Assembly: GCF_022012395.1 (NCBI RefSeq)
Contig: NZ_JAKLTQ010000001.1
Location: 496,001 to 560,000 of the forward strand
Source of the DNA: Arthrobacter hankyongi
Lineage (GTDB): Bacteria; Actinomycetota; Actinomycetes; Actinomycetales; Micrococcaceae
Direction of reading: 5' to 3'
DNA: 64,000 nt
In this document: piece by piece, positions 29,877 to 45,773 of the stretch
Layout of the letters: every line of letters starts with the position of its first letter
Position numbering within the stretch: the first letter of the stretch is position 1
The notes under the pieces: generated by a model
The model's input: only the letters and a program-made list of their open reading frames with translations
Databases searched by the model: none
What the model was told of the DNA's origin: nothing
Position numbers and translations under genes: made by a program

Positions 29877-31241
29877 TCAGTCCGTGCGGACCGTGCGGGG
29901 GTCGACGTTCCGGGCGGCGAAGATCAGCAGGCCGGAGGCCAGGATCGGCAGGACGCCCCACCATAGGGTGGCGTTGATCCAGCCGCCGCCGGCGGCGAGG
30001 GTGGCGGTGATCAGCAGGCCGCCGAGGATTGCCCCGACCTGGCCGGAGGCGTTGATGATGGAACTGCCCGTGGCCCGGGTGTGGACGGGGAAGCTCTCGC
30101 CGGTGAAGAACAGCAGGGCGGAGAAGGGGCCGATGAGGAAGAACAGCCCGGCGCTGTAGAGCCCGACGATGAGCGGGAAGTTCCCGTTCGGCGCCTGGAG
30201 CATGATGAAGAAGGAGACGGCACACAGGATCCAGCCGATCCCGATCGCGTTGCGGCGTCCGATCCGGTCCCCCAGCCAGCCGTGGAACAGGTAGCCGGCG
30301 AAGGCCGTGGCATTGGAAACGACGAGGATCAGCAGCGCGTTGGTGAACTCGATGTTCTTGCCGTCGGGGGCCGACAGCAGTGACGTGCCGAGGATCGCGA
30401 AGGCCAGGACGCCCAGCCAGTTCAGGAGGAAGGCCCCGCCGATCGTCAGGGTGGAGCGCAGCGACTCCCCGCGGAAGACCGAGACGAGCGGGGCGGCCTT
30501 CTCCGAGACGTCGATTCCGTACTTGTTACCGAGCTGCTGCGCCTCCTGTACCCGGCCGTCCTTGATCATCTCGTCGATCTGGTGACGGTGGGTGAACTGG
30601 GGGCTCTCCTTGAGCCAGCGTCCGGCGATGATGATGAAGACGGCGGGGATGGCGGCCACGACGAAGCAGAGCGCCCACCCGCCGATGGGGAAGAGCAGGT
30701 AGACGGACCCGGCAGCCAGCACGGAACCGACCGGCCAGCCGGACTGGACGAGCGAGTAGATCAGACCGCGGCGGCGGGCCTTGGCCGGATCGCTGTTGTG
30801 GGCGAACATCTCGTTGAGGTAGGCCGCGTTGATGGCCTGCTCGGCGTAGCCCAGGCCGGCCAGGGAACGCACCAGGACCAGGAACACGAGTCCGAGTCCG
30901 GCGGCGATGCCGACGACCCAGCCGACCGTGGCGGTCAGCAGTGAGGCGACGGCGGCACCGGCGACGGCGATCAGGATGCCCTTGCGGCGGCCGATCCGGT
31001 CCACGATCGGGCCGATCGCGAAGGCCACGAGCGCGGTGCCGGCGGTCACCCAGGTGTTGATCTCGGTGGACTGGGCCGGACCCAATCCGAGGTCTGCGGC
31101 CAGCTTTGGCAGGAGGTTGCCGAAGAGGACGAAGTCATAGACGGCAAAGGTCCAGGCGAAGAAGCAGATCCAGGTGGCCAGCCGGACGTCCTTGGGCCTG
31201 ACATCAGACTCGACAAATTGGGACATTGGGGCAGTGGACAT
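29877..31241 (-). CDS. MFS transporter, probable hydantoin/creatinine-related compound uptake
   Basis: 454 aa with 12 helices. It has FFAWTFAVYDFVLFGNLLPK in helix 1, DRIGRRKGIL between helices 2 and 3, RSLAGLGYAEQAINAAYLNEMF in helix 4 and GDRIGRRNAIG in the second half. It belongs with the aromatic-acid/sugar porter-like MFS members. AGGAA precedes the ATG. It is transcribed in the same direction as the fused hydantoinase, 124 bases downstream of it with a hairpin between. Uptake of N-methylhydantoin, creatinine or a similar ring amide is inferred from position only. Confidence 0.85.
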   Translation of the reverse strand: MSTAPMSQFVESDVRPKDVRLATWICFFAWTFAVYDFVLFGNLLPKLAADLGLGPAQSTEINTWVTAGTALVAFAIGPIVDRIGRRKGILIAVAGAAVASLLTATVGWVVGIAAGLGLVFLVLVRSLAGLGYAEQAINAAYLNEMFAHNSDPAKARRRGLIYSLVQSGWPVGSVLAAGSVYLLFPIGGWALCFVVAAIPAVFIIIAGRWLKESPQFTHRHQIDEMIKDGRVQEAQQLGNKYGIDVSEKAAPLVSVFRGESLRSTLTIGGAFLLNWLGVLAFAILGTSLLSAPDGKNIEFTNALLILVVSNATAFAGYLFHGWLGDRIGRRNAIGIGWILCAVSFFIMLQAPNGNFPLIVGLYSAGLFFLIGPFSALLFFTGESFPVHTRATGSSIINASGQVGAILGGLLITATLAAGGGWINATLWWGVLPILASGLLIFAARNVDPRTVRTD

Positions 31242-31298
31242 GACGGTTCCTAAGTCATAGGGATGAGAGGGGCGGGATGATGAGTCCGGAACGACAGG

Positions 31299-31343
31299 GG
31301 GCGGCCCGGAGGCTGGTCTGGCTGACTGGCCTCCGGGCCGCCC
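31299..31343 (-). terminator. Terminator hairpin behind the hydantoinase gene
   Basis: A perfect 15-bp inverted repeat (arms 31299-31313 and 31329-31343, 15-base loop) between the hydantoinase stop and the MFS start. It may reduce rather than abolish readthrough into the transporter gene. Confidence 0.7.
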
Positions 31344-31365
31344 TCTCACTGCTGCAGTTCCCCGG

Positions 31366-34300
31366 TCAGCTGGTGGGGCTGAGCTCGGAGGCCGAATGCT
31401 CGCGGCGTTCGGCGGTGGCCTCCAGGTCGACCGTGAGCTGGCCGTCGACCTCCTTGAGGACCACTCCGTAGTCGCGGGCGGCCGCCTCGGCGGTCGTAAA
31501 ACCGTCCAGCACGTCCTCCAGGACCTTCAGCGGGTCCCGCCGGTACGGATCCCCGAAGCCGCCGCCGCTGGGCACGGTGATCTGGAGGGAGTCACCGGCC
31601 AGCAGTTGGCGGCCGGTAACCTTGGAGGGCCAGGACTCCTCGCCCGCGCGGCCCGGGTTCTTCACAAGCGAGCCGTTGAGGCCCTCGTGGCCGCCGAAGG
31701 CCCCCCACGGCACGTCCGACTCGTGGCGTTCACCCTCGCAGGTGATCGCGGTGTCGGTCAGGAAGGTGTTCTCCCGCACGATGCCGATGCCGCCGCGGAA
31801 CTCCCCGGCCGCCGCCGGCTCGGAACGCAGCTCGTAGCGGTCGGTGCGCATCGGGAACCGCCACTCGAGTTCCTCGATCGGGTTGTTGCGGGTGTTGGCG
31901 ATGAGGTTGTCCACGGAGTCCGGCCCGTCGCTGGTGGCGCGGGCGCCGTAGGAGCCCTCGTTGACCTCCAGGTAGACCCAGTACTCGCCCTGCTTCTCGT
32001 CCCATCCCGAGTAGGAGATGAAGTGGATGTGGGCCGAGTTGCCGGCGGTGACCCGGTCGGGGATGACCGGGGCGAGGGCGCGCAGGGCCAGGTCCACGGC
32101 GCGCTGCACCTGGGAGAACCGCGAGAACGTGGCCGCCGGGTACTTCGGGTTGAAGATGGTGCCCTCCGGGGCGATCACCTTCAGCGGCTTGAGCATCCCC
32201 TCGTTCTGCGGCACGAACACCGGGAACGCGACCTCGTCGAGGAACATCATCCGGGTGATGAACGTGAACGCCGAGACCGTGGTGCCCTCGAAGGCGCAGT
32301 TGTACGCGGTGGGCACCTGCGGGCTCGAACCGGTGAGATCGTAGGTGATCTCGTCCCCCTCGACGATCACCTTCACGACGATCGGCAGCTTCTTGCCGTA
32401 GTTGCGGCCGTCGTCGTCCAGGTAGCCGACCTCCGTCTCGTAGACGCCGTCCGGGATCTTGGCGATCTCCTGGCGCAGCATCCGCTCCGAGTAGTCGATC
32501 CAGCTCTGGCCGGCGTCGCGGACCGCGTCCATGCCGTACCGGTCGACGAGGGCCAGGTAGCGGGACTTGGCCAGCTCGCAGGCGGCGATCATCGCCTGGA
32601 AGTCGCCCTCGTTGGAGGTTGGTGTCCGGGTGTTGTTGAGGATGTGCCGGATCAGCGATTCCTGGCGGACACCCTTCTCGTAGACCTTCACCGCCCGGAA
32701 GATGGTGCCTTCGGACTGGATGTCCTGGATGTCCACCATCAGCCCGGAGAACGCACCGCCGTTATCGATCAGCTGGCCCGAGGCGCCGGCGAAGCCGACG
32801 AGTTCCCCGGCGTGGAAGATCGGTTCGATGATCGCCACGTCCGGGGAGTGGGTGGCCCCCAGGTACGGGTCGTTGTGCAGGATGACATCGCCCTCATGGA
32901 TGTCATCGCCAAGGACCGAGATCACGCCCTTGACGATCTTGGGCATGGAGCCCATGAACATCGGCGTGGAGTCGGACTCGGCCAGCACGTTGCCGTCCTT
33001 GTCGAACAGGCCCGCACCGAGGTCCTCGGACTCGCGGATGATCGAGGAGTAGGCCATGCGGAACAGCACCGAGGCCATCTCCTTGGCTGCGGAGTTCAGG
33101 GCGCCGCCGATCACGCGCATCAGGATCGGGGTGGCCAGCTTCTCGGCGGTCTGGGTGGCGGCCGGGCAGTCGATGACCAGGTTGCCGGCGGCGTCCACCG
33201 TTCCGGAGAAGCCCGGGGGAATGACAACGGTGGAGTCGTACTGCTCGATGATCGCCGGACCGGCGAAGGCGGTGCCCACGCCCATCCTGTCGCGGTCGTA
33301 GAAGCCGGTGTCCACGGTGACCGGTTTGCCGTCCTGTTCGAAGGTCACCGGGCGGGTCTCCACCAGGGCTTCGTCGAGGGAACCGGACTTCGTCGCCTCC
33401 GGCGTGGGCAGCTCGTCCATCACGGCGCTGGCCTCGACGCGGATGTTGATGACTTCCACGGTGCCGTTCTTGAAGCGGTGGCCGTACTCCTCGAAGTGGG
33501 CGTCGTGGAAGGCGGCCTCGGCCTTTTCCAGCCAGGCCTGGTTGACCGGCCCCTCGGGGGCATTGAAGCGGATCTCGTAGCCCTGGCCCTCGTAGCGCGC
33601 GTCGGCCAGCCAGACGAGCCTGCGGCGTTCGGCCGGCACGTCCTCGGCATCCAGCAGGGCGTTGGCCTCGCGCTCCAGCTGCTCGTAGGAGCCCTGGATG
33701 GCGGCGGGGTCGGCGCTGGCGAAGGTGAACCGTCGGGTGGCGACGAATTCGTACTTCTCGTCGGTGGCCAGCAGGCCGGTGGCGGCGATGATGCCGGGGT
33801 GGGCCGGGATCAGCACCTTCGGGACCTCCAGCTCCGCGGCGATCTCGCAGGCGAACAGTGCGCCGGCACCGCCGGCGGCGACGAGGGTGAAGTCGCGCGG
33901 GTCGTAGCCGCGGCGCACGGAGTTCTGCTCGATCGCCTGGGTCATGCCGAACTTCTGGATCTGCAGGGCGCCGAGGGCGGCCTGGTCCACCGACATGTTG
34001 AGCTTTTCGGCGAGACCTTCCATGGCCTTTCGGGCGCCGTCGAGATCCAGATCCATACCCGAGCCTGCCAGGACGCGGTGCGGGCGCATGCGGCCCAGCA
34101 GCATCTGGGCGTCGGTCGATGTCGGCTCCGTCCCGCCGCGGCCGTAGCAGACCGGGCCCGGGTCGGCGCCGGCCGACTGGGGGCCGACGCGGAAGACCCC
34201 GCCGGCGTCGACGTAGGCGATGGAGCCGCCGCCGGCGCCGATGGTGTCGATATCCACCATGGGGACCATGGCCTGGTGGTCGCCGATCTTGGTGTCCAGC

Positions 34301-35232
34301 AGGTGACGCATGCGCAGTTCACCCTGGTAGGCCACACCGATGTCCGCCGAGGTGCCGCCGATGTCCAGGGTGACGACGTTCTCGAAGCCGGACTGGCGGC
34401 CGGCCCACATGCCGCCGATCAGGCCGCCGACCGGTCCGGACATCATCAGGGTGACGGGCCGCTTGGCCGCCTCCTTGATCGGGACCATGCCGCCGGAGGA
34501 CTGCATCAGCAGGATCTCGCGCTGGTAGCCCAGGGCCTCGGCCTGCTCCTGCAAGCGGTACAGGTAACGCGAGACCCGGGGCCCGACATAGGCATTCAGT
34601 GCGGTGGTGGAGAACCGCTCATACTCCCGGTACAGCGGCACGATGTCGCTGGACAGGGACAGGTAGGCCTCGGGGAACTCTTCGGCGACGATCTGCCCGA
34701 TCCGCTGCTCGTGGGCGGGGTTCAGGTAGGAGTGCAGCAGGCAGACGGCGATGGCCTCGACGCCGGCCGCCTTCAGCTCGCGCACCCGCTCACGGACCTC
34801 GTCCTCGTCCAGGGGAACCAGGACGTCCCCGTTCGGGGCGGTGATGCGCTCCTTGACGGTGAGCCGGTGACGGCGCTTGACCAGGGGCTTGGTCTGCCAC
34901 GGCAGGTCCTGCTGCAGCGAGAAGTTGTGCGGCTTCTTGTGGCGGGCGATGTGCAGGATGTCCCGGAAACCCTCGGTGGTGATCATCCCGACCTCCGCAC
35001 CGGTGTGCGTCAGCGCGGTGTTGGTGGCCACCGTGGTTCCGTGCACCAGCTGGTCGATCTCCGACAGTGCTACTCCGGCCTTCTCACAGAGCTTTTTGAT
35101 GCCGTTGATCACGGCCTCGGACGGGTCGTGCGGGGTGGAGGGAACCTTCTCGACCACGGCGATGCGCTGCTCGTCGTTCGAGAAATACAGGTCGGTGAAG
35201 GTACCGCCGACGTCTACTCCGATGCGCTTCAT
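31366..35232 (-). CDS. Fused hydantoinase A/B (ATP-dependent N-methylhydantoinase / oxoprolinase family)
   Basis: 1288 aa. Residues 1 to about 690 are HyuA: the actin-like ATPase motif GVDVGGTFTD at the start and LDIGGTSADIG near 287. From about 702 HyuB begins (ILMRVIGGALNSAAKEMAS) and continues through GDVILHNDPYLGATHSPD to the C-terminus. Family members cleave cyclic amides with ATP: 5-oxoprolinase, acetone carboxylase, and N-methylhydantoinase (N-methylhydantoin + ATP + water to N-carbamoylsarcosine). The divergent neighbour and its second copy at 43733 are N-carbamoylsarcosine amidohydrolases, so N-methylhydantoinase is the best assignment. Known N-methylhydantoinases are usually two polypeptides; here they are fused as in 5-oxoprolinase. 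Confidence 0.85.
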   Translation of the reverse strand: MKRIGVDVGGTFTDLYFSNDEQRIAVVEKVPSTPHDPSEAVINGIKKLCEKAGVALSEIDQLVHGTTVATNTALTHTGAEVGMITTEGFRDILHIARHKKPHNFSLQQDLPWQTKPLVKRRHRLTVKERITAPNGDVLVPLDEDEVRERVRELKAAGVEAIAVCLLHSYLNPAHEQRIGQIVAEEFPEAYLSLSSDIVPLYREYERFSTTALNAYVGPRVSRYLYRLQEQAEALGYQREILLMQSSGGMVPIKEAAKRPVTLMMSGPVGGLIGGMWAGRQSGFENVVTLDIGGTSADIGVAYQGELRMRHLLDTKIGDHQAMVPMVDIDTIGAGGGSIAYVDAGGVFRVGPQSAGADPGPVCYGRGGTEPTSTDAQMLLGRMRPHRVLAGSGMDLDLDGARKAMEGLAEKLNMSVDQAALGALQIQKFGMTQAIEQNSVRRGYDPRDFTLVAAGGAGALFACEIAAELEVPKVLIPAHPGIIAATGLLATDEKYEFVATRRFTFASADPAAIQGSYEQLEREANALLDAEDVPAERRRLVWLADARYEGQGYEIRFNAPEGPVNQAWLEKAEAAFHDAHFEEYGHRFKNGTVEVINIRVEASAVMDELPTPEATKSGSLDEALVETRPVTFEQDGKPVTVDTGFYDRDRMGVGTAFAGPAIIEQYDSTVVIPPGFSGTVDAAGNLVIDCPAATQTAEKLATPILMRVIGGALNSAAKEMASVLFRMAYSSIIRESEDLGAGLFDKDGNVLAESDSTPMFMGSMPKIVKGVISVLGDDIHEGDVILHNDPYLGATHSPDVAIIEPIFHAGELVGFAGASGQLIDNGGAFSGLMVDIQDIQSEGTIFRAVKVYEKGVRQESLIRHILNNTRTPTSNEGDFQAMIAACELAKSRYLALVDRYGMDAVRDAGQSWIDYSERMLRQEIAKIPDGVYETEVGYLDDDGRNYGKKLPIVVKVIVEGDEITYDLTGSSPQVPTAYNCAFEGTTVSAFTFITRMMFLDEVAFPVFVPQNEGMLKPLKVIAPEGTIFNPKYPAATFSRFSQVQRAVDLALRALAPVIPDRVTAGNSAHIHFISYSGWDEKQGEYWVYLEVNEGSYGARATSDGPDSVDNLIANTRNNPIEELEWRFPMRTDRYELRSEPAAAGEFRGGIGIVRENTFLTDTAITCEGERHESDVPWGAFGGHEGLNGSLVKNPGRAGEESWPSKVTGRQLLAGDSLQITVPSGGGFGDPYRRDPLKVLEDVLDGFTTAEAAARDYGVVLKEVDGQLTVDLEATAERREHSASELSPTS

Positions 35233-35425
35233 GAGGGATCCTTTCGGAAGTGAGGCTCAGGACTGCGTTGATGGGGGAATGGGTTGATGGGGAACTGGGT
35301 GATGGGAAACCCGGGGGCCTCCCGGCCGGTTCGCCCTGCCCCGGACGGACCGTCCAGTGAGTAGGGCCCTCGTCCGGCAGCACGCTGTGACTCCGGTCAC
35401 AACTTGTTGCTTACCCAGAAATATA

Positions 35426-35442
35426 GTTCCCTTCCAAGCAAC
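35426..35442. promoter_or_regulatory. Candidate operator, hydantoinase side (9 of 10 positions)
   Basis: GTTCC-N7-GCAAC, one mismatch from the GTTGC-N7-GCAAC palindrome found upstream of both amidohydrolase genes. It lies 194 bases ahead of the hydantoinase start. Confidence 0.4.
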
Positions 35443-35671
35443 ACGCAATGGTTTTAGGACTTTTTCTTCTGCTGCCGGGTGGGATGCGGCGGGCGGGGCA
35501 GCCCCGCCCGCTTCAGCAAAAGCCCCCTGCCGGCCCGGTGCGGCGGATCCAGGATTTCGGCAGGCTTCGGCTGCAGGCATCCGCGGCCGGACGGGGGGCG
35601 GTACGGGATTTTTTCCCGGATCCGCGGAGCGCCGGAAGTGCGGGAAGCGGGGGAAAAATTGGGGGTTACTT

Positions 35672-35688
35672 GTTGCGGAAGTAGCAAC
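35672..35688. promoter_or_regulatory. Candidate operator, amidohydrolase copy 1 (perfect)
   Basis: GTTGCGGAAGTAGCAAC, a perfect GTTGC-N7-GCAAC palindrome about 95 bases ahead of the amidohydrolase start. The same arms with the same spacing occur at 43690-43706 before the second copy. An IclR protein from one of the adjacent genes is the likely ligand. Confidence 0.6.
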
Positions 35689-35736
35689 TACAGTGATGGC
35701 ACAGCAACAAGGAGGAGCAAGGAGCTACCGACCCCC

Positions 35737-35753
35737 GTTGCCCAATCGACAAC
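35737..35753. promoter_or_regulatory. Candidate operator, amidohydrolase copy 1 (9 of 10 positions)
   Basis: GTTGCCCAATCGACAAC, one mismatch from the palindrome, centred 65 bases downstream of the perfect site and just before the amidohydrolase ribosome site. The spacing is close to six helical turns, which would suit cooperative binding or looping. Confidence 0.4.
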
Positions 35754-35783
35754 ATTGCCTCGTCGGCAGAGGGAGTCACGATC

Positions 35784-36539
35784 ATGTGGGAGAACAACCA
35801 CCAGAAGCTGGAAGCCGAACTCGAAAGCCTGCTGCAGAAGGTCTTCGAAGTCGACACCGAGGAGTACCACAAGCGCGGCTTCAAGCGCCGCGTCGGCTAC
35901 GGCACCCGGCCGGCCGTCATCCACATCGACATGGCCAACGCCTGGACCCGCCCGGGCCACCTGTTCTCCTGCAAGAACATGGAGACCATCATCCCGGCCT
36001 GCCAGGACCTCAACACAGCGGCCCGCGCCAAGGGCGTGCCGGTGATCTTCACGACCACCGCCTACGACGTCCTCGACATGAACCTGCCCTCCGACATGAG
36101 CCTGTGGTCCCAGAAGATCCCGGTCGAGACCCTGGACCCCAACTCGGATGCCGTGAAGATCGACGACCGCATCGCCCCGCAGCCGGGCGAGCTGGTGATC
36201 ACCAAGAAGCGCGCCAGCGCCTTCCCCGGCACGAACCTGCAGCAGTTCCTGACCGTGAACCGGATCGACACCGTCATCATCACCGGTGTCACCGCCGCCG
36301 GCTGTGTCCGCCACACCGTGGAGGACGCGATTGCCGAGGGCTTCCGCCCGATCATCGTCAAGGAGGCCGTGGGCGACCGCGTCCCCGGCGTGGTGTCCTG
36401 GAACCTGTTCGACATGGACTCCAAGTTCGTCGACGTCGAGCCGCTGGAGAACGTCATCCAGTACCTGAACAACCTGCCCGATTTCGCCGACACCGTCCCG
36501 ACCCCGGCGATCCCGGTCGCCAAGGCCCCCGTTGCCTGA
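35784..36539 (+). CDS. N-carbamoylsarcosine amidohydrolase-like cysteine hydrolase (copy 1)
   Basis: 251 aa isochorismatase-fold hydrolase. The catalytic triad is intact: Asp49 in IHIDMANAW, Lys141 in VITKKRASAF and Cys174 in TAAGCVRHTVEDA. It is closely related along its length to the second copy (43733), which matches the Arthrobacter enzyme, but differs enough (N-terminus WENNHQKLEAE, middle TTAYDVLDMNLPSDMSLWS) that substrate preference could differ. The reaction expected is N-carbamoylsarcosine to sarcosine, CO2 and ammonia. It is divergent from the fused hydantoinase that would make its substrate and is followed by an IclR gene. Confidence 0.88.
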   Translation: MWENNHQKLEAELESLLQKVFEVDTEEYHKRGFKRRVGYGTRPAVIHIDMANAWTRPGHLFSCKNMETIIPACQDLNTAARAKGVPVIFTTTAYDVLDMNLPSDMSLWSQKIPVETLDPNSDAVKIDDRIAPQPGELVITKKRASAFPGTNLQQFLTVNRIDTVIITGVTAAGCVRHTVEDAIAEGFRPIIVKEAVGDRVPGVVSWNLFDMDSKFVDVEPLENVIQYLNNLPDFADTVPTPAIPVAKAPVA

Positions 36540-36612
36540 CCGGAACCCCACGCCACGGCGCGGCTCCGGATCTCCGGGGCCCCGCCCGGCGTGCAATGGC
36601 GAGGGAGAACCC

Positions 36613-37491
36613 ATGCTGGACTCAGACATCACCACCGGCAAGCCGCAGGGCGCGGCAGCATCGCTGCTTAACGGCCTTACGGTCCTCGAGGCCTTTTCCG
36701 TGGCCCAACGTTCCCTCCTGGGCGTCACGGAGATTTCCGAGCTGGTCGGACTGCACAAGAGCACCGTCTCCCGGATGCTCACCGGCCTGACCGAAGCCGG
36801 CTACGTCCAGCGCGACGACGACACCGGACGGTACCGCCTCGGACTCGGGATGATCGGACTGGCCGGACCGCTGCTGGCCGAACTGGACGTCCGCCGTGCC
36901 GCACTGCCGCATCTGGAAGAACTGACGCAGACCACCGGGGAGACGGCCGCGATCGCCGTCTGGAACGGCATCAACGCGGTGGTCGTGGAACAGACGGCCA
37001 GCCCGCACCAGGTCAAGCACAGCGCATCGATCGGCACGCGCTACAACAGGTTCGCCAGCTCCTCCGTCCGCATCTTCCTCGCCGAACTGCCGACCGAGGA
37101 AGCCGCCCGCCTCCTGTCGGCAGGGATCATCCTGCGGGACAGCTACCGAGGACTCGACGACCCGGCCCACGAACACCTGGCCGGCATCCGGGAACTGGGA
37201 TTCGCCGTCAACGACGGCGAGACCACCTTCGAGGAATATGGCGTCTCCGCCCCCGTGCGGGGCTACCGGGGCGCGGCCGTCGGCTGCATCACCGCCAGCG
37301 CGCCACGGTCGAGGGTGCAGTTCCAGGCCAGCCAGCCGATCCTGCGCGATGCGGTGCTTCAGGCAGCCGAACGCGTGTCGGCCCGGCTGGGCAGCCGGCC
37401 GGCGGAAAACAAATCCAGTGCGCCGACCGTCATTGTGGCTCCTTTAGGGAAGCAAATCGCGCCATTGCGCCCGGCAGCCGGCGTGCGGTGA
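36613..37491 (+). CDS. IclR family regulator of the hydantoin/creatinine genes (paralogue 1)
   Basis: 292 aa. The winged helix (ASLLNGLTVLEAFS to VGLHKSTVSRMLTGL) and effector domain (YGVSAPVRGYRGAAVGCIT) are complete. GAGGGAGA precedes the ATG at 36613. It follows the first amidohydrolase by 73 bases in the same direction and is the best candidate to bind the GTTGC-N7-GCAAC sites. The last 15 or so residues (VIVAPLGKQIAPLRPAAGVR) are read from the antisense strand of the soxG remnant, so the natural C-terminus was replaced at a recombination junction near 37440. It is strongly similar to the IclR genes at 37914 and 44679. Confidence 0.87.
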   Translation: MLDSDITTGKPQGAAASLLNGLTVLEAFSVAQRSLLGVTEISELVGLHKSTVSRMLTGLTEAGYVQRDDDTGRYRLGLGMIGLAGPLLAELDVRRAALPHLEELTQTTGETAAIAVWNGINAVVVEQTASPHQVKHSASIGTRYNRFASSSVRIFLAELPTEEAARLLSAGIILRDSYRGLDDPAHEHLAGIRELGFAVNDGETTFEEYGVSAPVRGYRGAAVGCITASAPRSRVQFQASQPILRDAVLQAAERVSARLGSRPAENKSSAPTVIVAPLGKQIAPLRPAAGVR

Positions 37492-37779
37492 AATCCGCGA
37501 ACGACGACAGGGCAGGATCCGGTAGGTCTGCGTGCGGCTTTCCCCGGCGGTCCGCCGGAGCAGGACCAGCACCGGCCCGAACGACTTCGGCCACGGTCTT
37601 GCCGGGGCCGAAGACGCGGGGGGTGCAAGTCCGCCGGGCTGCCCTTCTCCAGCACTGTGCGGGCCGAGGGACCGGTCAGTTCCAGCGCGGTAAGGCACTC
37701 CGGCCACGGCTCGCTCGCGGAATACGTTTTCCAAGCAGGTCAGCGGGCTGCGGCGCAGTTGGGAAATGTCATATATCAC
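37444..37779 (-). pseudogene. soxG: Sarcosine oxidase gamma subunit remnant (soxG), deleted and frameshifted
   Basis: A GTG at 37779 with GGAGGA upstream opens a frame reading QLRRSPLTCLENVFRERAVAG, the N-terminus of SoxG. The sequence then jumps, in another frame, to ELTGPSARTVLEKGSPADLHP, the conserved central motif of SoxG. Two further frame changes recover VFGPGKTVAEVV, GPVLVLLRRTAGESRTQTYRI and SSFADFTARRL, all expected SoxG C-terminal elements. About half of the gene is missing. SoxG is part of heterotetrameric sarcosine oxidase (soxBDAG), which converts sarcosine, the product of the amidohydrolase, to glycine. The other sox genes are not in the window. Confidence 0.7.
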
Positions 37780-37913
37780 CTGTTCCTCCCGATCTGAAAG
37801 AATGCCGTCGGTTACACGGTGCTGCTGACGTTCGCCCAAGAAGCGCGGGTGAACCAGCCCGGCAGGGAAGGTCCTTGCGCCTGACCCGCCGGATTGGCCG
37901 CAGAGGCGGACTC

Positions 37914-38735
37914 TCAGGCTTGGTTCCTTCCCGTGTCCCGGCCCGCGGCCGACCAGCCCAGGCGGATGGATACTTCCAAGGCAGCATGCTGCACGGCTTG
38001 AACCAGAGCGTCCCCGGCGGCGTGCTCATGCACGCGGGAACGGGGAGCGGATGCGGTGATGCAGCCAACCACCCTGCCCCGGTAATCGCGGACCGGAGCG
38101 GAGACCCCGAACTCCTCCCCGGTTGTCGAACCGTCATTGACGGCGTATGCCCGACGGGCGACATCCTGCAGGTGGGCCGTGTGATCCACCGGCAGGCCAT
38201 CTCCTGCCGTGCGCAGTATCCGCCCGGATTCAATCAGTTCGGTCGCGAGGCCCGGGGCCAGCTCCGCCAGGAAAACCCGCACCGAGGAGCTCTCGAACTT
38301 GTTGTACCGGGTTCCGATGGCGGCAGTGTGTTTGACCTGGTACGGGCTGGCCACCTGCTCCACGACGATGGCCTCATGACCGTTCCAGACCGAGATGGCG
38401 CTGGTCTCCCGGGTACTTTCGGTCAGCTGCTCCAAATACGGAACCGCGGCACGGCGGACATCCAGGTCCGCTAGCAATGGCCCGGACAGCGCAATGAGGC
38501 CCAGCCCGAGCCGGTACCGGCCCGTCTCCTCATCCCGCTGGACATACCCGGCTTCTGTCAGACCGCCGAGAATGCGCGACACCGTGCTCTTGTGGAGGCC
38601 CACGCGCTGGGCAATCTCGGTCACACCGAGAACCGGCTTTTGAACGGAAAAGGCTTCCAGCACGGCAAGACCGTTCAACAGCGAGGCCGCAGCTCCCTGG
38701 ACCTGCCCGTTGTCCTGCCTCGGCCTGCCTGCCAT
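37914..38735 (-). CDS. IclR family regulator (paralogue 2)
   Basis: 273 aa, full length. Its winged helix (SLLNGLAVLEAFSVQKPVLG, VGLHKSTVSRILGGL) and effector domain (FGVSAPVRDYRGRVVGCITAS) are close to those of the IclR protein at 36613, so the two arose by duplication. AAAGGA lies 5 bases before the ATG at 38735; the ATG at 38741 would overlap it. It is divergent from the molybdate regulator/modABC operon and 135 bases from the soxG remnant. It may once have controlled the sarcosine oxidase genes. Confidence 0.87.
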   Translation of the reverse strand: MAGRPRQDNGQVQGAAASLLNGLAVLEAFSVQKPVLGVTEIAQRVGLHKSTVSRILGGLTEAGYVQRDEETGRYRLGLGLIALSGPLLADLDVRRAAVPYLEQLTESTRETSAISVWNGHEAIVVEQVASPYQVKHTAAIGTRYNKFESSSVRVFLAELAPGLATELIESGRILRTAGDGLPVDHTAHLQDVARRAYAVNDGSTTGEEFGVSAPVRDYRGRVVGCITASAPRSRVHEHAAGDALVQAVQHAALEVSIRLGWSAAGRDTGRNQA

Positions 38736-38899
38736 CTGCATCCTTTCGCGCGGCGTGACCTCCCGCCCCTCTCATGGCCATCATAAGCCGCAGCCCGGGG
38801 GCAGATGCGGACGATGCGTCCCTCCGCCGGTGCGGAACAGATAGCGACCAAGACTTTGGCGAATGAGGAATTTGCAGATGCGTCTGAAATAATAGTTTT

Positions 38900-39310
38900 A
38901 TGCCGCAGATACGGATTTCGGATGCCGCGCGCTTCCTGGGGGTCAGCGACGACACGGTCCGCCGCTGGATCGATTCCGGCAACCTGGCCGGCTCCAAGGA
39001 CGCCTCCGGCTACGCCGCCGTCGACGGGCTGGAACTGGCCCAGCTCGCCCGGAAGCAGGCCGTGCTGCCGGAGGATCCCACGGGCATCGGCAGCTCGGCA
39101 CGCAACCGCTTCGTGGGCCTGGTGACGGACATCATCATCGACAAGGTCATGGCCCAGGTAGAGCTGCAATGCGGCCCGCACCGGGTGGTATCGCTGATGA
39201 GCGCCGAGGCCGTCAGGGAATTGGGGCTGGAACCCGGTTCGGTCGCCACCGCCGTCGTCAAGGCCACCACCGTCATCGTCGAAACCCCACAGGGAAAAGG
39301 CACCGTATGA
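38900..39310 (+). CDS. Molybdate-responsive regulator: MerR-like HTH plus Mop domain
   Basis: 136 aa. Residues 1-60 form an excisionase/MerR-type winged helix (ISDAARFLGVSDDTVRRWIDSG). Residues 68-133 form a Mop/TOBE domain (SARNRFVGLVTDIIIDKVMAQVELQ) that binds molybdate or tungstate. This short HTH-Mop protein replaces E. coli-type ModE in many actinobacteria. No ribosome site precedes the ATG and the 20 bases upstream are AT-rich (AAATAATAGTTTT), so the mRNA may be leaderless. The stop overlaps modA (ATGA), so it is the first gene of the molybdate operon and probably represses it when molybdate is bound. Confidence 0.85.
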   Translation: MPQIRISDAARFLGVSDDTVRRWIDSGNLAGSKDASGYAAVDGLELAQLARKQAVLPEDPTGIGSSARNRFVGLVTDIIIDKVMAQVELQCGPHRVVSLMSAEAVRELGLEPGSVATAVVKATTVIVETPQGKGTV

Positions 39311-40101
39311 AACTCTTCCGACCTGTCGGATCACTGCTGCTTGGCGGCACGCTCGCGGCCTCGCTGGCCGCCTGCGGTTCCGGCACCCAGAATGCCGCGC
39401 CCGCGTCGTCGGCCTCCGGTGCCGAGGACGGCACACTCACGGTCTTCGCCGCCGCCTCGCTCAAGCAGACCTTCACCGAGCTCGCCAAAACGTTCGAACA
39501 GCAGCATCCGGGAACCAAGGTGGCGTTGAACTTCGCCGGGTCCTCGGACCTGGCCACGCAGATAACCGAAGGCGCGCCTGCGGATGTCTTCGCCTCCGCC
39601 GACACCAAGAACATGGACAAGCTGGCCGCCGCTTCGCTGGTGGCAGGCAAGCCGGAAAACTTTGCCACCAATGTGCTGACCATCGCCACCCCGCCGGATA
39701 ACCCGGCCGGCATCACCTCCTTCGCAGATCTGGCCAAGCCAGGCGTCACCGTGGTGGTCTGCGCTCCCCAGGTACCCTGCGGCGCCGCCGCTCAGAAGGT
39801 CGAGGCTGCCAGCGGAACCACGCTCAAGCCGGCCAGCGAGGAATCCGCCGTCACGGACGTGCTCGGCAAGGTCGTCTCCGGCGAGGCTGATGCGGGCCTG
39901 GTCTACGTCACAGATGCCAAGGGCGCCGCCGGCAAGGTGAAGGAGGTCCCCTTCCCCGAAGCCAAGGACGCGGTGAATACCTATCCGATCGCCGCCGTCG
40001 GCACCAGCGCACAGAAGGAATTGGGAGCGGAGTTCATTGACCTGGTCACCGGTGAAGAAGGACGCAAGGTCCTCGGTGCGGCCGGCTTCGGCCGGCCCTG
40101 A
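39307..40101 (+). CDS. modA: Molybdate ABC transporter substrate-binding lipoprotein
   Basis: 264 aa. A lipoprotein signal ends LAASLAAC with lipidated Cys23. The mature protein starts [18 protein letters not shown] and contains [12 protein letters not shown] and [11 protein letters not shown], the oxyanion contacts of ModA. It is anchored on the outer face of the membrane and delivers molybdate (or tungstate) to ModBC. The ATG at 39307 overlaps the stop of the Mop-domain regulator; AAAGG lies six bases upstream. The operon serves molybdenum-cofactor enzymes, none of which is in the window. Confidence 0.92.
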
Positions 40102-40936
40102 CGGGCGGGCGGGCCGGCGCCGACGGCAATCCGCCGCGGGGTCCCCGGGCCTGCCGCGGTGGATCCTGCTGCCTGCCGCCCTGGGCTTCCTGGCCGTCCT
40201 GCTGCCGCTGGCTGCCATGGCCGCGCGGGTCAACTGGTCCGAGTTCCTTCCGCTGGTGACCTCCCCGGCTTCGCTTACCGCTTTGGGCCTGAGCCTGCGC
40301 ACCGCCGCGGCCAGCACCCTGCTGTGCGTGGTCCTGGGCACCCCGGCTGCGCTGGTTCTGGCGCGCACGCGGTTCCCCGGGCAGCAACTGCTGCGGGCCC
40401 TGGTCCTGCTGCCGCTGGTGCTGCCGCCGGTAGTCGGCGGCATCGCGCTGCTCTACACCTTCGGCCGCCGCGGACTGCTCGGCCAGACCCTGGAGGTGCT
40501 GGGTATCCAGATCGCGTTTTCGACCACGGCGGTGGTGCTGGCGCAGACCTTTGTGGCCATGCCGTTTCTGGTGGTCAGCCTTGAGGGAACGCTGCGCACC
40601 GCCGGGAACCGGTACGAGGCGGTGGCCGCCACCCTGGGCGCCCGGCCGACGACGGTGCTCACCCGGGTCACCCTCCCGCTGATCCTGCCCGGACTGGCCT
40701 CGGGGGCGGTGCTCTCCTTCGCCCGCGCCCTGGGCGAATTCGGCGCCACGCTCACCTTTGCCGGCAGCCTCGAGGGCGTCACCCGGACGCTGCCGCTGGA
40801 GATCTACCTGCAGCGCGAGACGGATCCGGACGCCGCGGTGGCCCTGTCCCTGGTGCTGGTGGCCGTCGCCGCCGTCGTCGTCGCCGTGTCCTACCGCAAG
40901 ACCTTTACCGGCGCCTTGGACGCCGCGGCACGGTGA
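40076..40936 (+). CDS. modB: Molybdate ABC transporter permease
   Basis: 286 aa from the GTG at 40076, preceded by AAGG; the gene overlaps the end of modA by 26 bases. A basic N-terminus leads to six helices. The ABC coupling loop [27 protein letters not shown] contains the EAA motif. The rest ([15 protein letters not shown]) is typical of ModB/CysT permeases. A TTG at 40037 in the same frame would add 13 residues. The stop overlaps the GTG of modC. Confidence 0.88.
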
Positions 40937-41994
40937 GCTTCCAGTTGGAGGCCGAGGTCGCGGCGCGGGGATTCGGCGTCTCGCTGGCCCTGGCGCCGGG
41001 CGAAACCGTGGCCGTGCTCGGGCCCAACGGGGCGGGCAAATCCACGCTGCTCTCCGTGGCTGCCGGGCTGCTGCGTCCGGATGCCGGCCGGGCCGTGCTG
41101 GACGGCCGCACGCTGTTCGACCTGCCGGCCGGCCCTTGGCTGGCGCCGCACCTGCGCGGCACCGTGCTGCTGGCCCAGGAGCCGCTGCTCTTCCCGCACC
41201 TGAGCGTGCTGGACAACGTCGCCTTCGCCCCCCGCAGCGCCGGAGCCGGCCGGCGCAGCGCCCGGGAAGCCGCCCGCCGCTGGCTCGCCGAGGTCGACGC
41301 CCTTGAGCTGGCCGGCCGCCGGCCGGCCGAACTGTCCGGCGGCCAGGCCCAGCGGGTCGCCGTCGCCCGGGCGCTGGCGGCGGATCCGCAGCTGCTGCTG
41401 CTGGACGAGCCGCTGGCCGCGCTCGACGTGGCTGCCGCCCCGATGCTGCGGCGGCTGCTCAAGCGCGTCCTCGCCGGCCGGCGCGCGGTGATCGTCACCC
41501 ACGACGTGCTGGACGCGCTGATGCTCGCCGACCGGGCGGTCGTCCTCGAGGACGGCCGGATCACTGAAGACGGCCCCGTGCGCCGGATCCTGGAGCGTCC
41601 GCGCAGCCGCTTCGCGGCCGGGCTGGCCGGGCTGAACCTGGTCAGCGGCACCGTTGCCGGGGACGGCCTGCTGGCCGCCGACGGCGCCGGCGGACTGACC
41701 GGCACCACCGTGACCGGGACGCCGGACCCTGCGGCCGCCACCGGACAGCCCGGCATCGCGGTGTTCCGCCCGGCGGAGGTGTCGGTCTTCGCCGAGCCGG
41801 TCCACGGCAGCCCGCGGAACACCTTCGCGGTCACCGTCAGCGATGTAGAACCGCAGGGCAGCCACCTCCGGGTCCACGCCGGCGGGCTGTATGCGGACAT
41901 CACCGTCGCGGCGGCCGCGGACCTGGACGTGGCGCCGGGGATGGCCCTGTACTTTTCGGTCAAGGCCACCGCGGTGGAAATCTATCCCGCCTGA
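40933..41994 (+). CDS. modC: Molybdate ABC transporter ATP-binding protein
   Basis: 353 aa. Walker A is GPNGAGKST (about residues 33-41), the signature [15 protein letters not shown], Walker [13 protein letters not shown] and the switch His in IVTHD. A C-terminal TOBE/Mop domain (about 290-350) may sense molybdate. The GTG overlaps the modB stop (GTGA). The 3' end of the gene abuts, within a few bases, the truncated relaxase on the other strand, which marks a recombination junction. Confidence 0.9.
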
Positions 41995-41995
41995 T

Positions 41996-42906
41996 CGGCC
42001 CCCGCCGCCCCAGCCCGCCGGCGCGGTCCATGCAGCCACCGCCGCGGCCGCAGCCTGCGGGGTGTCCGCCCAGTGCTTCCGCAGCCGGGGCAGGGCCAAA
42101 TCCCGGGCCAGGGTATTGCCGCCGAACCAGACCGGCCGCTCCCCCGGCCGCGGGCGTTCGGCCACCGAGTAGCCGGTAACCACGTCGGTGCGCCCGGCCG
42201 CGAACCTGGGGCGCAGCAGCAGGTGCTCGGCACGGGCTCGGCGGATGAATTCGGCCTCGTCCGCGGCCGCCGCGGCACAGGCCCGCACCGTGTTCGCCAG
42301 GGAGTGGCGGCCGAGGTCGGCCCAGCCCTGCCGGGCGGCCTTGGCCTGCTCGGCCGGGGTGTAGCCGCGCCCGACGTACGCCGGGTCCAGCCCGGTCAGC
42401 CCGTACCTGGCCTCGAGGGCCCGGCAGACCTGCTGGGAACGGTACTTGGACTTCCACGCATTCCACTTCGTGCCGTCCTCGCGGACCATGGTGGCGACCA
42501 GGTGGATGTGGTCGTTGCCGTTCTTGCTCTCCCCGTGCCGGATGGCCGCCCAGCGGCACGGGGCCCTCCCGTCGTCCCCGGCGAAGCCCATCGCCCGGGC
42601 AAAGTCGTCGGCAATCCCGGCCCACTGCTGGTCGGCCAGCTGCCCGTCCCCGGCCGGCAGGCTCAGCGAGCAGTAGAACACGTACCCGCCGGCCACCTCC
42701 GTGCCGTGGAACCGGCGCGGCCGGTCCAGGTGGGCCGCGACCGCCAGGGCCGCGTCCCGGTCCAGCTCGGTATCGTCGTGCCAGGCCATCACCGCCGCAT
42801 CCCCGGCCACCAGGTGCGGATCCTCATGTTCGTTCGCCCGCCCCGGCCCCACCAGGTACACCCACAAACCGGCCATCCTGGCCCCCTGGGTGATGTTCGG
42901 GATCAC
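41996..42906 (-). pseudogene. Relaxase/mobilization nuclease, C-terminally truncated
   Basis: The N-terminal 300 or so residues of an actinobacterial plasmid relaxase: IPNITQGARMAGLWVYLVGPGRANEHE-like start, CSLSL, and the metal-binding HGESKNGNDHIHLVATMVRED (motif III). The GTG at 42906 overlaps the mobC stop. At about 41996 relaxase-like sequence ends and the frame continues antisense through modC without a stop until 40891, so the natural C-terminus is gone. A fused product of about 670 residues could be made but would carry a nonsense tail. This is debris of a mobilizable plasmid or integrative element. Confidence 0.75.
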
Positions 42907-43316
42907 GACCGCCCCGATTTAGGCCTCGCGGCCAGCCAGGCCAGCAGCCGGTCAATCCGGATGATCAGCCCGCGCGCGTGCGCGATCGAGGCCGCGGACT
43001 CGGCCGGCACCCGTCCGGTGGCCCCGGCATGCCCCGCCAACCGGTTGATGCTGTTCGACACCGTCCCGACCAACTGCTGCAGCCGCGCCAGTTCGGCAAT
43101 CAACTCCCGCCGGTGCGCCGGCACCTGCCCCTCGGCGCTCAGCGCCGCCTCGATCAACAGCCGCGGCACCGTCACCTGATGCCGCTCCGCCAAAGCCAGC
43201 AGCCTGGCTTCCTCCTCCGCGGAGACCTTCACCTCGTGCCGGTGCACCCGCCCGCCGCCGGCCACGTTCGCCCGCCGCCGCCGGCCCCGCCACACCGGAT
43301 GCTGGTTCCCGTCCAT
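42903..43316 (-). CDS. MobC-like plasmid mobilization relaxosome protein
   Basis: 137 aa. A basic N-terminus (WRGRRRRANVAGG) leads to HEVKVSAEEEARLLALAERHQVTVPRLLIEAAL, a ribbon-helix-helix-like region, and a helical C-terminal half with LQQLVGTVSNSINRLAGHAG and ARGLIIRIDRLLAWL, typical of MobC relaxosome accessory proteins. The overlap with the relaxase start (GTGA) is the usual mobC-mobA arrangement. It should bind the oriT region directly upstream. Apparently intact, although its partner is truncated. Confidence 0.82.
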   Translation of the reverse strand: MDGNQHPVWRGRRRRANVAGGGRVHRHEVKVSAEEEARLLALAERHQVTVPRLLIEAALSAEGQVPAHRRELIAELARLQQLVGTVSNSINRLAGHAGATGRVPAESAASIAHARGLIIRIDRLLAWLAARPKSGRS

Positions 43317-43412
43317 GCCCTCCGCTTCCCGCCTCGGCCAGCGCAGCGACCCCGCCCCCGGGGATCTCCTCCAGAGTGCACGCGCCCCGCGGCACACGTC
43401 GAGTACAAAGCA

Positions 43413-43521
43413 GACTTAGCCGCGCTAAGTCACCAGCTTGCTCCGCCCAAATATCGGCACCGGCCTGTGTGTTCCGGGTGCCTCCGACCGTCCGGCCACA
43501 GGGTGTTTTTTGGGACTTAGC
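43413..43521. other. oriT-like repeat region upstream of mobC
   Basis: The 415-base gap between mobC and the second amidohydrolase holds no gene I can support. It contains an inverted repeat with arms GACTTAGC (43413-43420) and GCTAAGTC (43424-43431), and GACTTAGC again at 43514-43521, each followed by a CG-rich step. Inverted repeats with a nearby direct copy upstream of mobC are the usual make-up of a transfer origin. The nick site cannot be assigned by eye. Confidence 0.45.
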
Positions 43522-43689
43522 GCGCAATTTCATGCCGTTACTACCAAGACCCCTCCCTTGCTGGGCTGCCGGAGTGACGCACCCGCCGATGCTCGCCCCG
43601 ACCGAGCAGTTGGTCCGAGGGGACACAGATTCGGCGAATCTCTGGTGCTGCGCAGATCCGTGCGCTACAGTAGTCAACACAGCAACCAA

Positions 43690-43706
43690 GTTGCTCGGTT
43701 AGCAAC
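43690..43706. promoter_or_regulatory. Candidate operator, amidohydrolase copy 2 (perfect)
   Basis: GTTGCTCGGTTAGCAAC, a perfect GTTGC-N7-GCAAC palindrome 27 bases before the start of the second amidohydrolase gene. The same arms and spacing occur before the first copy. Confidence 0.6.
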
Positions 43707-43732
43707 AAATTACCGTGAGAGTGGAGAGAGCA

Positions 43733-44512
43733 ATGACAGTTACGTCCAATACGTCCAACGACATCGAAGCCCGTCTTGCAGCAGTGCTGGAGGAGGCGTT
43801 CGAAGCCGGCACGGGCATCTACAACGAGCGCGGCTTCAAGCGTCGGATCGGCTACGGCAACCGCCCCGCCGTCATCCACATCGACCTCGCGAACGCCTGG
43901 ACCCGTCCGGGCCACCCGTTCAGCTGCCCGGGCATGGAGGAGATCATCCCGAACGTCCAGCGGATCAACGAGGCTGCGCGCGCCAAGGGGGTCCCGGTCT
44001 TCTACACCACGAACGTGTACCGCAACCGCGACGCCACCTCCGGCACGAACGACATGGGCCTGTGGTACTCGAAGATCCCCACGGAGACCCTTCCGGCGGA
44101 TTCCTACTGGGCGCAGATCGACGACCGCATCGCGCCCGCAGACGGAGAGGTCGTGATCGAGAAGAACCGTGCCTCGGCGTTCCCGGGGACGAACCTCGAG
44201 CTCTTCCTGACCTCCAACCGCATCGACACCCTGATCGTGACCGGTGCGACCGCGGCCGGGTGCGTGCGCCACACCGTCGAGGACGCGATCGCGAAGGGCT
44301 TCCGCCCGATCATCCCCAGGGAGACCATCGGCGACCGTGTCCCGGGCGTCGTGCAGTGGAACCTCTACGACATCGACAACAAGTTCGGTGACGTGGAGTC
44401 CACGGATTCGGTGGTGGCGTACCTGAACGGCCTCCCGCAGTTCGAGGACACGGTCCCGAAGACCCTCTCGGATCCCCAGCCCGAGGTCGAGTGCCCCGCG
44501 GATCCGGCCTGA
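43733..44512 (+). CDS. N-carbamoylsarcosine amidohydrolase (copy 2)
   Basis: 259 aa, EC 3.5.1.59 type: N-carbamoylsarcosine + water to sarcosine + CO2 + NH3, a step of creatinine breakdown through N-methylhydantoin. The sequence (NDIEARLAAVLEEAFEAG, GLWYSKIPTETLPADSYWAQ) is, as far as I recall, almost identical to the crystallised Arthrobacter enzyme, and the catalytic residues fall at the published numbers: Asp51, Lys144 and Cys177 in TAAGCVRHTV. GGAGAGAG precedes the ATG. Upstream are a GTTGC-N7-GCAAC site and, beyond it, plasmid mobilization genes; downstream is a damaged IclR gene. The paralogue is at 35784. Confidence 0.93.
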   Translation: MTVTSNTSNDIEARLAAVLEEAFEAGTGIYNERGFKRRIGYGNRPAVIHIDLANAWTRPGHPFSCPGMEEIIPNVQRINEAARAKGVPVFYTTNVYRNRDATSGTNDMGLWYSKIPTETLPADSYWAQIDDRIAPADGEVVIEKNRASAFPGTNLELFLTSNRIDTLIVTGATAAGCVRHTVEDAIAKGFRPIIPRETIGDRVPGVVQWNLYDIDNKFGDVESTDSVVAYLNGLPQFEDTVPKTLSDPQPEVECPADPA

Positions 44513-44564
44513 GCCACACCGTACTGTCGGAGTCCCGCGGGCCGGCATCCTCAGGCCGAACCGG

Positions 44565-44602
44565 CGTCAGCCCGGCACCCCTCAGTGGGTGCCGGGCTGA
44601 CG
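44565..44602 (+). terminator. Terminator hairpin behind amidohydrolase copy 2
   Basis: A perfect 16-bp inverted repeat (arms 44565-44580 and 44587-44602, 6-base loop) starting 53 bases after the stop. Confidence 0.78.
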
Positions 44603-44678
44603 CACATCTATGAGGACATGGACGTACCGGGCATCCGTACAGGGCGCCCGGCACACCCGTTCAGCCAGAAGAGGACCG

Positions 44679-45329
44679 ATGTTGGCAGGCGAGCGCAACG
44701 CCCCCCCCGGGAATCAGGGTGCCGCGGCATCGTTCCTCAACGGATTCACGATGCTCGAGGCATTCTCGACCTCTGATCGTCCGCTTCTCGGCAACATCGA
44801 GATCGCCTCGATCATGAGTCTGCACCGGGGCATGGTCTCCCGTATGCCCACCGGTCTGTCCGAAGCCGGATACGTGCAGCGTGACGAGCCTCCGGGGCAC
44901 TCTCGGCTGGGTCTGGGCATTAACACGATCACCGGCCCGCAACTGGCCGAGCTGGACGTGCGCCGCGAGGCCTTGCCGCACCTGGAGGAACTGCCGGCCG
45001 CCGAGGTGGATCGGTTGCTGTCCTCCGGGGCCGGGGCCGGGGACCCCGCGTTCCGGCACCTGGACGCGGTCCGGGAGTCCGGGGTTGCCGTCAACGACGG
45101 CGAGACGACGTTCGAGGAGTACGGCGTCTCGGCGCCCGTGCACGACTACCGGGGCGCGGTGGTCGGCTGCATCACCGTCAGCGCTCCCCGCGCCCGCGTG
45201 CAGTACCGCGGCAACCAGGCCGAACTGCGCGAGGCCGTGCAGAAGGCCGCCCGCCAGACCCCGGTCCGCCTCGGCGGCGCCCCGGCCGCATCGGTCGCGC
45301 CGGCTCCGGAGGTGGAAACGGTCTCCTGA
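44679..45329 (+). pseudogene. IclR family regulator with an internal in-frame deletion (paralogue 3)
   Basis: 216 aa, compared with 273-292 for its paralogues. The N-terminus aligns (GAAASFLNGFTMLEAFS), but the recognition helix is altered (MSLHRGMVSRMPTGLSEAG against VGLHKSTVSRMLTGLTEAG). After LPHLEEL the protein jumps directly to PAAEVDRLLSSG, losing about 55 residues that in the paralogues form the first part of the effector domain. The end (YGVSAPVHDYRGAVVGCIT) is intact. GAGGA precedes the ATG. The position behind an amidohydrolase gene repeats that of paralogue 1, so the pair was duplicated as a unit. The protein is probably inactive or has lost ligand response. Confidence 0.72.
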
Positions 45330-45342
45330 CCCCCCTCGGCGC

Positions 45343-45660
45343 TCAGGCCCCGGGGGCGCCCATACGGGTGGAGATGCGGCGGGCGGCGGCGCGGCACTCG
45401 GCGGCCAGCGCCGCGACGGACTCCGGGGGACGCAGTAGAACGGGGCGGCAACGAGGACGCTGGCGACCACCCGCCCGCGGTGGTCCCGCACGGGAGCGGC
45501 CACGCCGACCTCGTCCTCGGAGGTCTCGCAGTGGTTCACGGCGTAGCCCTGCTCGCGCACGGTCGCCAGGCGGGCCAGGTACTCCCGCGGTCCGGTGCTG
45601 GCCTCGAGCGTGACCCGGCCCTCCCGGAGGAGGCGACGGACGTCGTCGGGGTCCTCGTGG
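45343..45660 (-). pseudogene. IclR family regulator C-terminal remnant, frameshifted
   Basis: The minus strand reads DPDDVRRLLREGRVTLEAS, then VREQGYAVNHCETSEDEVGV, AAPVRDHRGRVVASVLVAAP, the C-terminal effector half of an IclR protein. After FYCVP the frame shifts, and PESVAALAAECRAAARRIST to a TGA at 45343-45345 completes the family ending. The DNA-binding half is missing; upstream sequence (to about 45765) is unrelated and unassigned. It is a fourth IclR-type relic in this island and converges on paralogue 3. Confidence 0.65.
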
Positions 45661-45773
45661 GCCGGTGGGCTCGAAGCCATCGGTTTCCCGCAGATCGCCC
45701 TGGCCGCGGCCGAGAGGATCCCCCGGACCGTCGGCTTCGCCGTCACCGCCTGAGCAGGCCGGTCCTCGCCTTC

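Follow-up and report, generated by a model that had tools for sequence, protein, structure and literature searches.

A 64,000-nucleotide stretch of the genome of the soil bacterium Arthrobacter hankyongi (positions 496001–560000 of contig C1, NZ_JAKLTQ010000001.1, in a genome of 5.19 Mb), hereafter the window, contains a catabolic island (29877–45329 in window coordinates) that a first-pass annotation assigned to the degradation of creatinine and N-methylhydantoin. The locus raises the question of which compound enters this pathway, and with it that of why two genes for N-carbamoylsarcosine amidohydrolase (CSH) are present and how they are controlled. Very probably, the island is an accessory N-methylhydantoin catabolic module, with predicted enzymes that would lead from N-methylhydantoin through N-carbamoylsarcosine and sarcosine to glycine. 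Its minus strand carries the genes for an MFS transporter and a HyuA-HyuB fusion protein. The genes for one amidohydrolase (CSH2) and a regulator (IclR1) are divergent from the fusion gene and are followed by a soxG relic, a convergent gene for a second regulator (IclR2), a molybdate ABC operon, a relaxase/MobC remnant, the gene for the other amidohydrolase (CSH1) and IclR relics.

The fusion protein described in the first-pass annotation is encoded by a single reading frame (31366–35232, minus strand; 1288 aa), in which the Pfam domains Hydant_A_N, Hydantoinase_A, Hydant_A_C and Hydantoinase_B follow one another. It can be aligned end to end and without gaps (residues 1–1287, 2687 bits) with PDB entry 7hk5, named 'N-methylhydantoinase'. 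The enzyme of PDB entries 7hk5–7hka and 9h03 is likewise a single fused chain of 1288 residues and has the same residues at four metal positions. The differences from 7hk5 are a minority of substitutions, such as that in the adenosine motif, which reads GADPGP in the protein studied here and GAVPGP in 7hk5. The ATP-binding motifs of the superfamily, defined in PMC8453981 as DxGGT, DxGGT and GxxPGP, occur as DVGGT (residue 7), DIGGT (residue 290) and GADPGP (residue 355). At the metal site, Asp737, His795 and Asp798 match ligands of the caprolactamase subunit CapB, and the fourth position is occupied by Gln820, where CapB has His124. Caprolactamase CapAB of Pseudomonas jessenii (PDB 6yra; PMC8453981) thus resembles the fusion in its ATP-dependent two-part architecture, in its ATP motifs and at three metal-ligand positions out of four, but it is composed of two separate subunits and its similarity to the fusion is far lower (384 and 246 bits). 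The two-subunit N-methylhydantoin amidohydrolases of the Pseudomonas putida 77 type, cited in PMC4417704, are also ATP-dependent and have A and B parts; here the two parts are joined in one polypeptide, whereas the known enzymes are usually two-subunit proteins (PMC4417704).

Forty related loci were fetched with the fusion as the query, with flanks of up to 10 kb, some of which end at contig ends. Like the fusion, 7hk5 has glutamine at the fourth metal position. So do 30 of 38 sequences, that of the window among them, whose alignment covers this position; the remaining eight, six alphaproteobacterial and two distant proteins, have histidine (the partial loci L032, L042 and L045 were excluded and L041 is gapped there). 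The aligned actinobacterial fused hydantoinases therefore carry glutamine where caprolactamase and the alphaproteobacterial relatives carry histidine. The latter come from six metagenome bins (L033, L034, L035, L040, L043 and L044), in which the fused hydantoinase is 66–67% identical; the next gene there is for an amidase, as classified in L040 alone, rather than for CSH, and possibly supplies a different second-step enzyme. Pieces of a second, diverged hydantoinase (50–74% identity) were observed near the intact cluster of Paeniglutamicibacter gangotriensis (L013, 3092–3734).

Both amidohydrolases named in the first-pass annotation could be substantiated. CSH1, of group 1 (43733–44512, plus strand; isochorismatase family), shares 247 of 258 residues (96%, counted on the alignment) with PDB entry 1nba, and Asp51, Lys144 and Cys177, which we take to be the catalytic triad, are indeed located at the published positions. 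CSH2, of group 2 (35784–36539, plus strand; isochorismatase family), also has 1nba as its top PDB match (338 bits) and is ∼64% identical to CSH1; its Asp49, Lys141 and Cys174 are aligned with the three residues of CSH1. Residue 172, presumably near the substrate in CSH1, is alanine in CSH1 and valine in CSH2. The two proteins belong to separate groups: an unrooted tree of 29 rows has a branch between them whose support is 100/100. In all eight chosen pairs, nonsynonymous divergence (dN) was lower than synonymous divergence (dS) by the Nei-Gojobori method, which is rough at the G+C content concerned: dN was 0.09–0.21 and dS 0.47–1.34 for CSH2 pairs, and dN was 0.02–0.06 and dS 0.12–0.33 for CSH1 pairs. 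Therefore, both groups appear to have been kept functional, the indication being weakest for the Sinomonas pair (0.06 versus 0.12). The 1nba protein comes from Arthrobacter sp. according to PMC8864220; CSH1 is its near-identical counterpart, triad included, while CSH2 represents the second group.

These proteins can be arranged into a predicted four-step route. The MFS protein (29877–31349, minus strand; Pfam MFS_1/Sugar_tr), present as annotated, would import N-methylhydantoin. Its gene lies 16 bp downstream of the fusion gene in the same direction, and by family clustering a homologue adjoins the fusion gene in 23 of the 40 fetched loci (downstream in 22, divergent in L022). The A half of the fusion would then activate a ring carbonyl with ATP and the metal site of the B half would open the ring to give N-carbamoylsarcosine; this step is proposed because of the near-identity to the named enzyme, the mechanism being drawn by analogy with the superfamily. 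In the third step the cysteine hydrolases CSH1 and CSH2 would release sarcosine, CO2 and ammonia, as suggested by near-identity for CSH1 and by the conserved triad and context for CSH2. Finally, sarcosine would be converted to glycine by the product of a soxBDAG operon elsewhere on the contig.

The soxG relic reported in the window is real (37403–37771, minus strand), although no match to the Pfam SoxG profile was obtained in the window and the relic is visible only against the sox operon of the genome itself. It matches the soxG/sdaA junction of that operon at 77–79% nucleotide identity, lacks ∼270 bp internally and is interrupted by stop codons in each of the three minus-strand frames; in L011 and L024, DNA similarity extends into the relic. 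Apart from this pseudogene fragment the window contains no part of SoxBDAG. The intact operon (glyA, soxB, soxD, soxA, soxG, sdaA and purU), sought in the full genome as the first-pass annotation had proposed, lies outside the window on the same contig at ∼769–777 kb, and all four SoxBDAG subunits (∼770–776 kb) score above their cut-offs; glyA, purU and sdaA are intact alongside. An intact glyA-soxBDAG-purU set is linked to the hydantoinase in two Sinomonas loci, ∼2 kb away and separated from it by two small genes, of which one encodes an IclR protein; in the Citricoccus locus L017 glyA and part of soxB lie at a distance of 8 kb, where the fetched sequence ends. In the light of this linkage, the soxG relic looks like the trace of an earlier physical link. 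Thus, of the pathway outlined originally, the conversion of N-methylhydantoin to N-carbamoylsarcosine and sarcosine is upheld by near-identity to two solved enzymes, and that of sarcosine to glycine by the intact soxBDAG genes, while the creatinine label is not retained. Some considerations weigh against this assignment. The roles of these proteins are predicted from sequence, the activity of CSH2 on N-carbamoylsarcosine is deduced solely from homology and context, and the fourth metal ligand of the fusion, Gln820, is unlike that of CapB.

In order of frequency, the fetched loci contain CSH genes (open frames of more than 200 codons) of the CSH1 type in 19 cases and of the CSH2 type in seven, 26 of 40 in total, with neither type in 14 and both types intact in none. 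When the present genome is counted with nine others of the genus, creatininase is present in nine of the ten, a hydantoinase of this kind in three (a count omitting a 36% identical relative in G007 with two in-frame TGA codons), CSH1 in three and CSH2 in one, the present genome. Since the hydantoinase occurs in only three of the ten, the island can be considered an accessory trait. Across the 40 loci and the ten same-genus genomes, both amidohydrolase genes are intact only here. Clear remains of CSH2 were detected in three loci, L018, L026 and G009. In the first two, CSH2-type fragments (90–93% identical) adjoin the hydantoinase; L011, L013 and L036 contain CSH2-type fragments too, the assignment of which is less clear. 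In G009, a genome of the same genus, a CSH1 cassette with 95% identity over 1.02 kb to window positions 43575–44597 lies between two fragments of CSH2, with nucleotide identities of 84% and 88%, and is flanked by an IclR1-like relic on one side and by intact IclR1 and IclR2 genes on the other. We infer from this series that CSH2 was replaced by a CSH1 cassette. In the simplest order, CSH2 would have been the first neighbour of the hydantoinase, a CSH1 cassette would have arrived later together with an operator of its own, and CSH2 would have decayed in some relatives; the present genome would represent the stage with both genes intact, and G009 that with CSH1 amid the remains of CSH2. Two CSH1 genes 4 kb apart, encoding identical proteins, were observed in Arthrobacter sp. 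AQ5-05 (L027, 1534–2307 and 5550–6323).

Alternatively, CSH2 might not be an older N-carbamoylsarcosine amidohydrolase but an enzyme specialised for some other N-carbamoyl amino acid. The identity of only 64% to CSH1, the alanine-to-valine difference at residue 172 and the maintenance of an intact CSH2 beside an intact CSH1, with dN below dS, would all be consistent with such a role. However, in seven fetched loci the CSH2-type protein is the sole amidohydrolase of this sort in the sequence retrieved around the hydantoinase, and the CSH2 remains flank CSH1 in G009, as replacement by an equivalent enzyme would predict. We therefore consider the specialisation of CSH2 unlikely, and prefer the replacement of one N-carbamoylsarcosine amidohydrolase by another.

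The creatinine label is at odds with the rest of the genome. A creatininase (336 bits to TIGR04448, with the cut-off at 235; top PDB match 1j2t) and a creatinase (top PDB match 1chm, 563 bits) are encoded outside the window at ∼793–796 kb of contig C1, 250 kb from the island and near the sox operon, in a region that also contains transporters, a dimethylglycine-dehydrogenase-type flavoprotein (read from NCBIfam matches) and further IclR genes. In L089 (10185–11726) a gene for an NCS1-type symporter, scoring under the family cut-off, was observed upstream of the creatininase genes and is a candidate creatinine transporter. The creatinine deiminase that the first-pass annotation had suggested seeking in the full genome was not recognised among 18 PF07969 and 17 PF01979 matches, which are partly the same proteins and were judged with no positive-control sequence. 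Those above a family cut-off are HutF, HutI, an allantoinase, two hydantoinases/dihydropyrimidinases and a dihydroorotase; a NagA-like protein and a third hydantoinase-like protein fall under a family cut-off, and ten superfamily proteins, nine PF07969 proteins of 547–800 codons and L086, are below every one. Creatininase and creatinase being present, creatinine is most likely served by the creatininase route.

The island could still belong to a second creatinine route, if a creatinine deiminase elsewhere fed N-methylhydantoin into it. Corynebacterium glutamicum ATCC 14067 is described in PMC8864220 as having both creatininase and a CodA-fed N-methylhydantoin branch, and the common predicted operator considered below may link the two clusters. 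Against this stand the deiminase search just described and the presence of creatininase in nine of the ten genus genomes as opposed to three for the hydantoinase, and we regard two creatinine routes as improbable. N-methylhydantoin, a by-product of creatinine that had been mentioned originally as a possible natural entry compound, is a better reading than creatinine, and the island is best called an N-methylhydantoin module. A further reading, in which the main substrate of the fusion is a different cyclic amide (hydantoin, dihydrouracil, 5-oxoproline or a lactam) and CSH1 and CSH2 cleave N-carbamoyl amino acids other than N-carbamoylsarcosine, is very improbable: the superfamily of the fusion does include proteins named 5-oxoprolinase and caprolactamase, and isochorismatase-family relatives have many substrates, but the near-identity to the named N-methylhydantoinase and N-carbamoylsarcosine amidohydrolase extends from end to end, the scores against the caprolactamase families (561 and 291 bits) are far under the cut-offs of 1000 bits each, and the hydantoinase is often paired with CSH, in Sinomonas also with sarcosine oxidase.

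Of the several IclR genes noted previously, two intact ones and two relics were found. IclR1 (36604–37491, plus strand, with an alternative start at 36532) runs with its last codons into the soxG relic, and IclR2 (37914–38741, minus strand) is 76% identical to the product of one IclR gene of the creatininase region. A shortened, IclR1-like gene with an internal loss (44610–45329, plus strand) is probably a relic, and a C-terminal IclR fragment (about 45435–45680, minus strand) lies just past the end of the interval. Each CSH gene is preceded by one copy of the palindrome GTTGC-N7-GCAAC, and these are the only two copies in the window: one at 35672–35688, between the divergent fusion and CSH2 genes, and one at 43690–43706, 26 bp ahead of the CSH1 start codon. 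In shuffled sequences 0.11 copies were expected, and two of 100 shuffles reached two. An imperfect operator-like site with one mismatch (35407–35421) is located ∼175–190 bp upstream of the fusion gene. Eight strict sites are present in the 5.19 Mb genome, of which two are in the window, four at 788.4–794.5 kb, in the creatininase region, and two elsewhere; with the two sites that defined the motif left out, four of six fall within ∼6 kb.

The site recurs in relatives. Of 27 loci from relatives, 24 have a relaxed site in the 1.2 kb preceding the fusion gene, with 1.14 sites per kb there compared with 0.05 elsewhere in the same loci; this set comprises all fetched loci that have an intact CSH gene (26 of 40) and L094, the 14 without CSH having been dropped, as was L095, the same record as L008. 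TTGC-N7-GCAA is located at about −147 to −195 of the fusion gene in 21 of the 28 relatives' loci listed, among which L008 and L095 are one record. Out of 2304 palindromic patterns tried on the 28 upstream regions, it ranks first, with 25 regions, and the same half-sites with the other spacers tried reached at most two of 28. TGCT-N5-AGCA ties on regions and is largely the same site one step inward; the best unrelated pattern reached 17. In two other genomes that have the hydantoinase, G009 and G005, strict sites are again present, one preceding the transporter gene and one close to where the creatinase gene begins. Neither the site nor the neighbouring IclR gene was seen in stretches of four genus members without this hydantoinase (L100–L103, of which L103 is cut by a contig end near creatinase). 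In G008, another genome lacking the hydantoinase, a second creatininase set is accompanied by both the site and the IclR gene.

Paralogous IclR proteins would, in our proposal, bind GTTGC-N7-GCAAC and govern the island together with the creatininase/creatinase module, common control being proposed because both modules end in sarcosine. Several results speak against such an operator. Site totals did not exceed those of reversed controls (8 versus 10 for GTTGC-N7-GCAAC and 3 versus 4 for TTGCT-N5-AGCAA), so that the evidence for it consists solely in the striking placement of the sites, and of the eight, two had been used to define the motif. The site is absent from two Sinomonas loci and from Pseudonocardia, and no site is present within the 18 kb containing the sox operon. 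Moreover, the loci share ancestry, and conservation of the motif across them is not fully independent. We consider the chances about even that the palindrome is the predicted operator of the paralogous regulators and unites both routes in one regulon. Much the same balance applies to the joint reading, in which an IclR-family sarcosine-source regulon of Micrococcaceae would connect both routes and a mobile CSH1 cassette with its own operator would have displaced the ancestral CSH2. A third TTGCT-N5-AGCAA site of the genome (C19, 46729), located between an apparent ABC transporter gene and a TetR-type gene (read without a profile), was not counted in the regulon. Control by AmtR was also considered; the window contains no sequence within three mismatches of the 20-bp AmtR consensus given in PMC8864220.

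The stretch between CSH2 and CSH1 also contains two elements that the first-pass annotation did not mention. The molybdate-type ABC operon (38900–41994, plus strand; a TOBE/HTH protein, ModA, ModB and ModC) is probably a passenger outside the pathway. A relaxase fragment and a MobC/NikA-like gene (42079–43397, minus strand) are probably the remnant of a plasmid integration beside CSH1; positions 42079–43257 resemble the relaxase and mobC genes of Arthrobacter plasmids, with 73–75% identity in the three best records. Neither element was detected in the equivalent regions of G009 and G005. The two elements suggest that foreign DNA has entered here, and they have no evident part in the pathway. 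A plasmid origin of the whole island was considered and discarded: among the plasmid records listed (15 of 23) none covers 80% of the island, Arthrobacter-type records matching the relaxase/MobC stretch only and a few others matching short pieces of the hydantoinase or the molybdate operon.

The enzymes and the pathway are already known, the latter from Arthrobacter, and both proteins have solved near-identical relatives. In PMC8864220, the csh and hyu genes of Corynebacterium and the genes of Arthrobacter sp. AQ5-05 are treated as creatine/creatinine degradation genes; in the systems described there (C. glutamicum ATCC 14067 and AQ5-05, our L027), cshA and hyu are likewise grouped with creatininase and sarcosine oxidase. 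The hydantoinase of AQ5-05 is called a heterodimer in a figure legend of that paper, whereas L027 has one fused frame. The regulator in Corynebacterium is AmtR, and IclR is not mentioned in the main text of PMC8864220; here IclR genes and a palindrome are present, and no AmtR-like site is in the window. An IclR operator for creatinine or N-methylhydantoin genes was not recognised in the titles and abstract beginnings of the open-access literature searched. What we add is a second group of amidohydrolases, the series of replacement stages and the candidate operator, none of which was found in that literature.

Clinical creatinine assays make use of such enzymes, which gives their natural context some practical value: the island points to a candidate transporter, to amidohydrolases of a second group that could serve as alternative enzymes, and to a candidate operator for inducible expression. 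In addition, the island provides a case in which one amidohydrolase has apparently replaced another within a gene cluster, with intermediate stages to be seen in living genomes.

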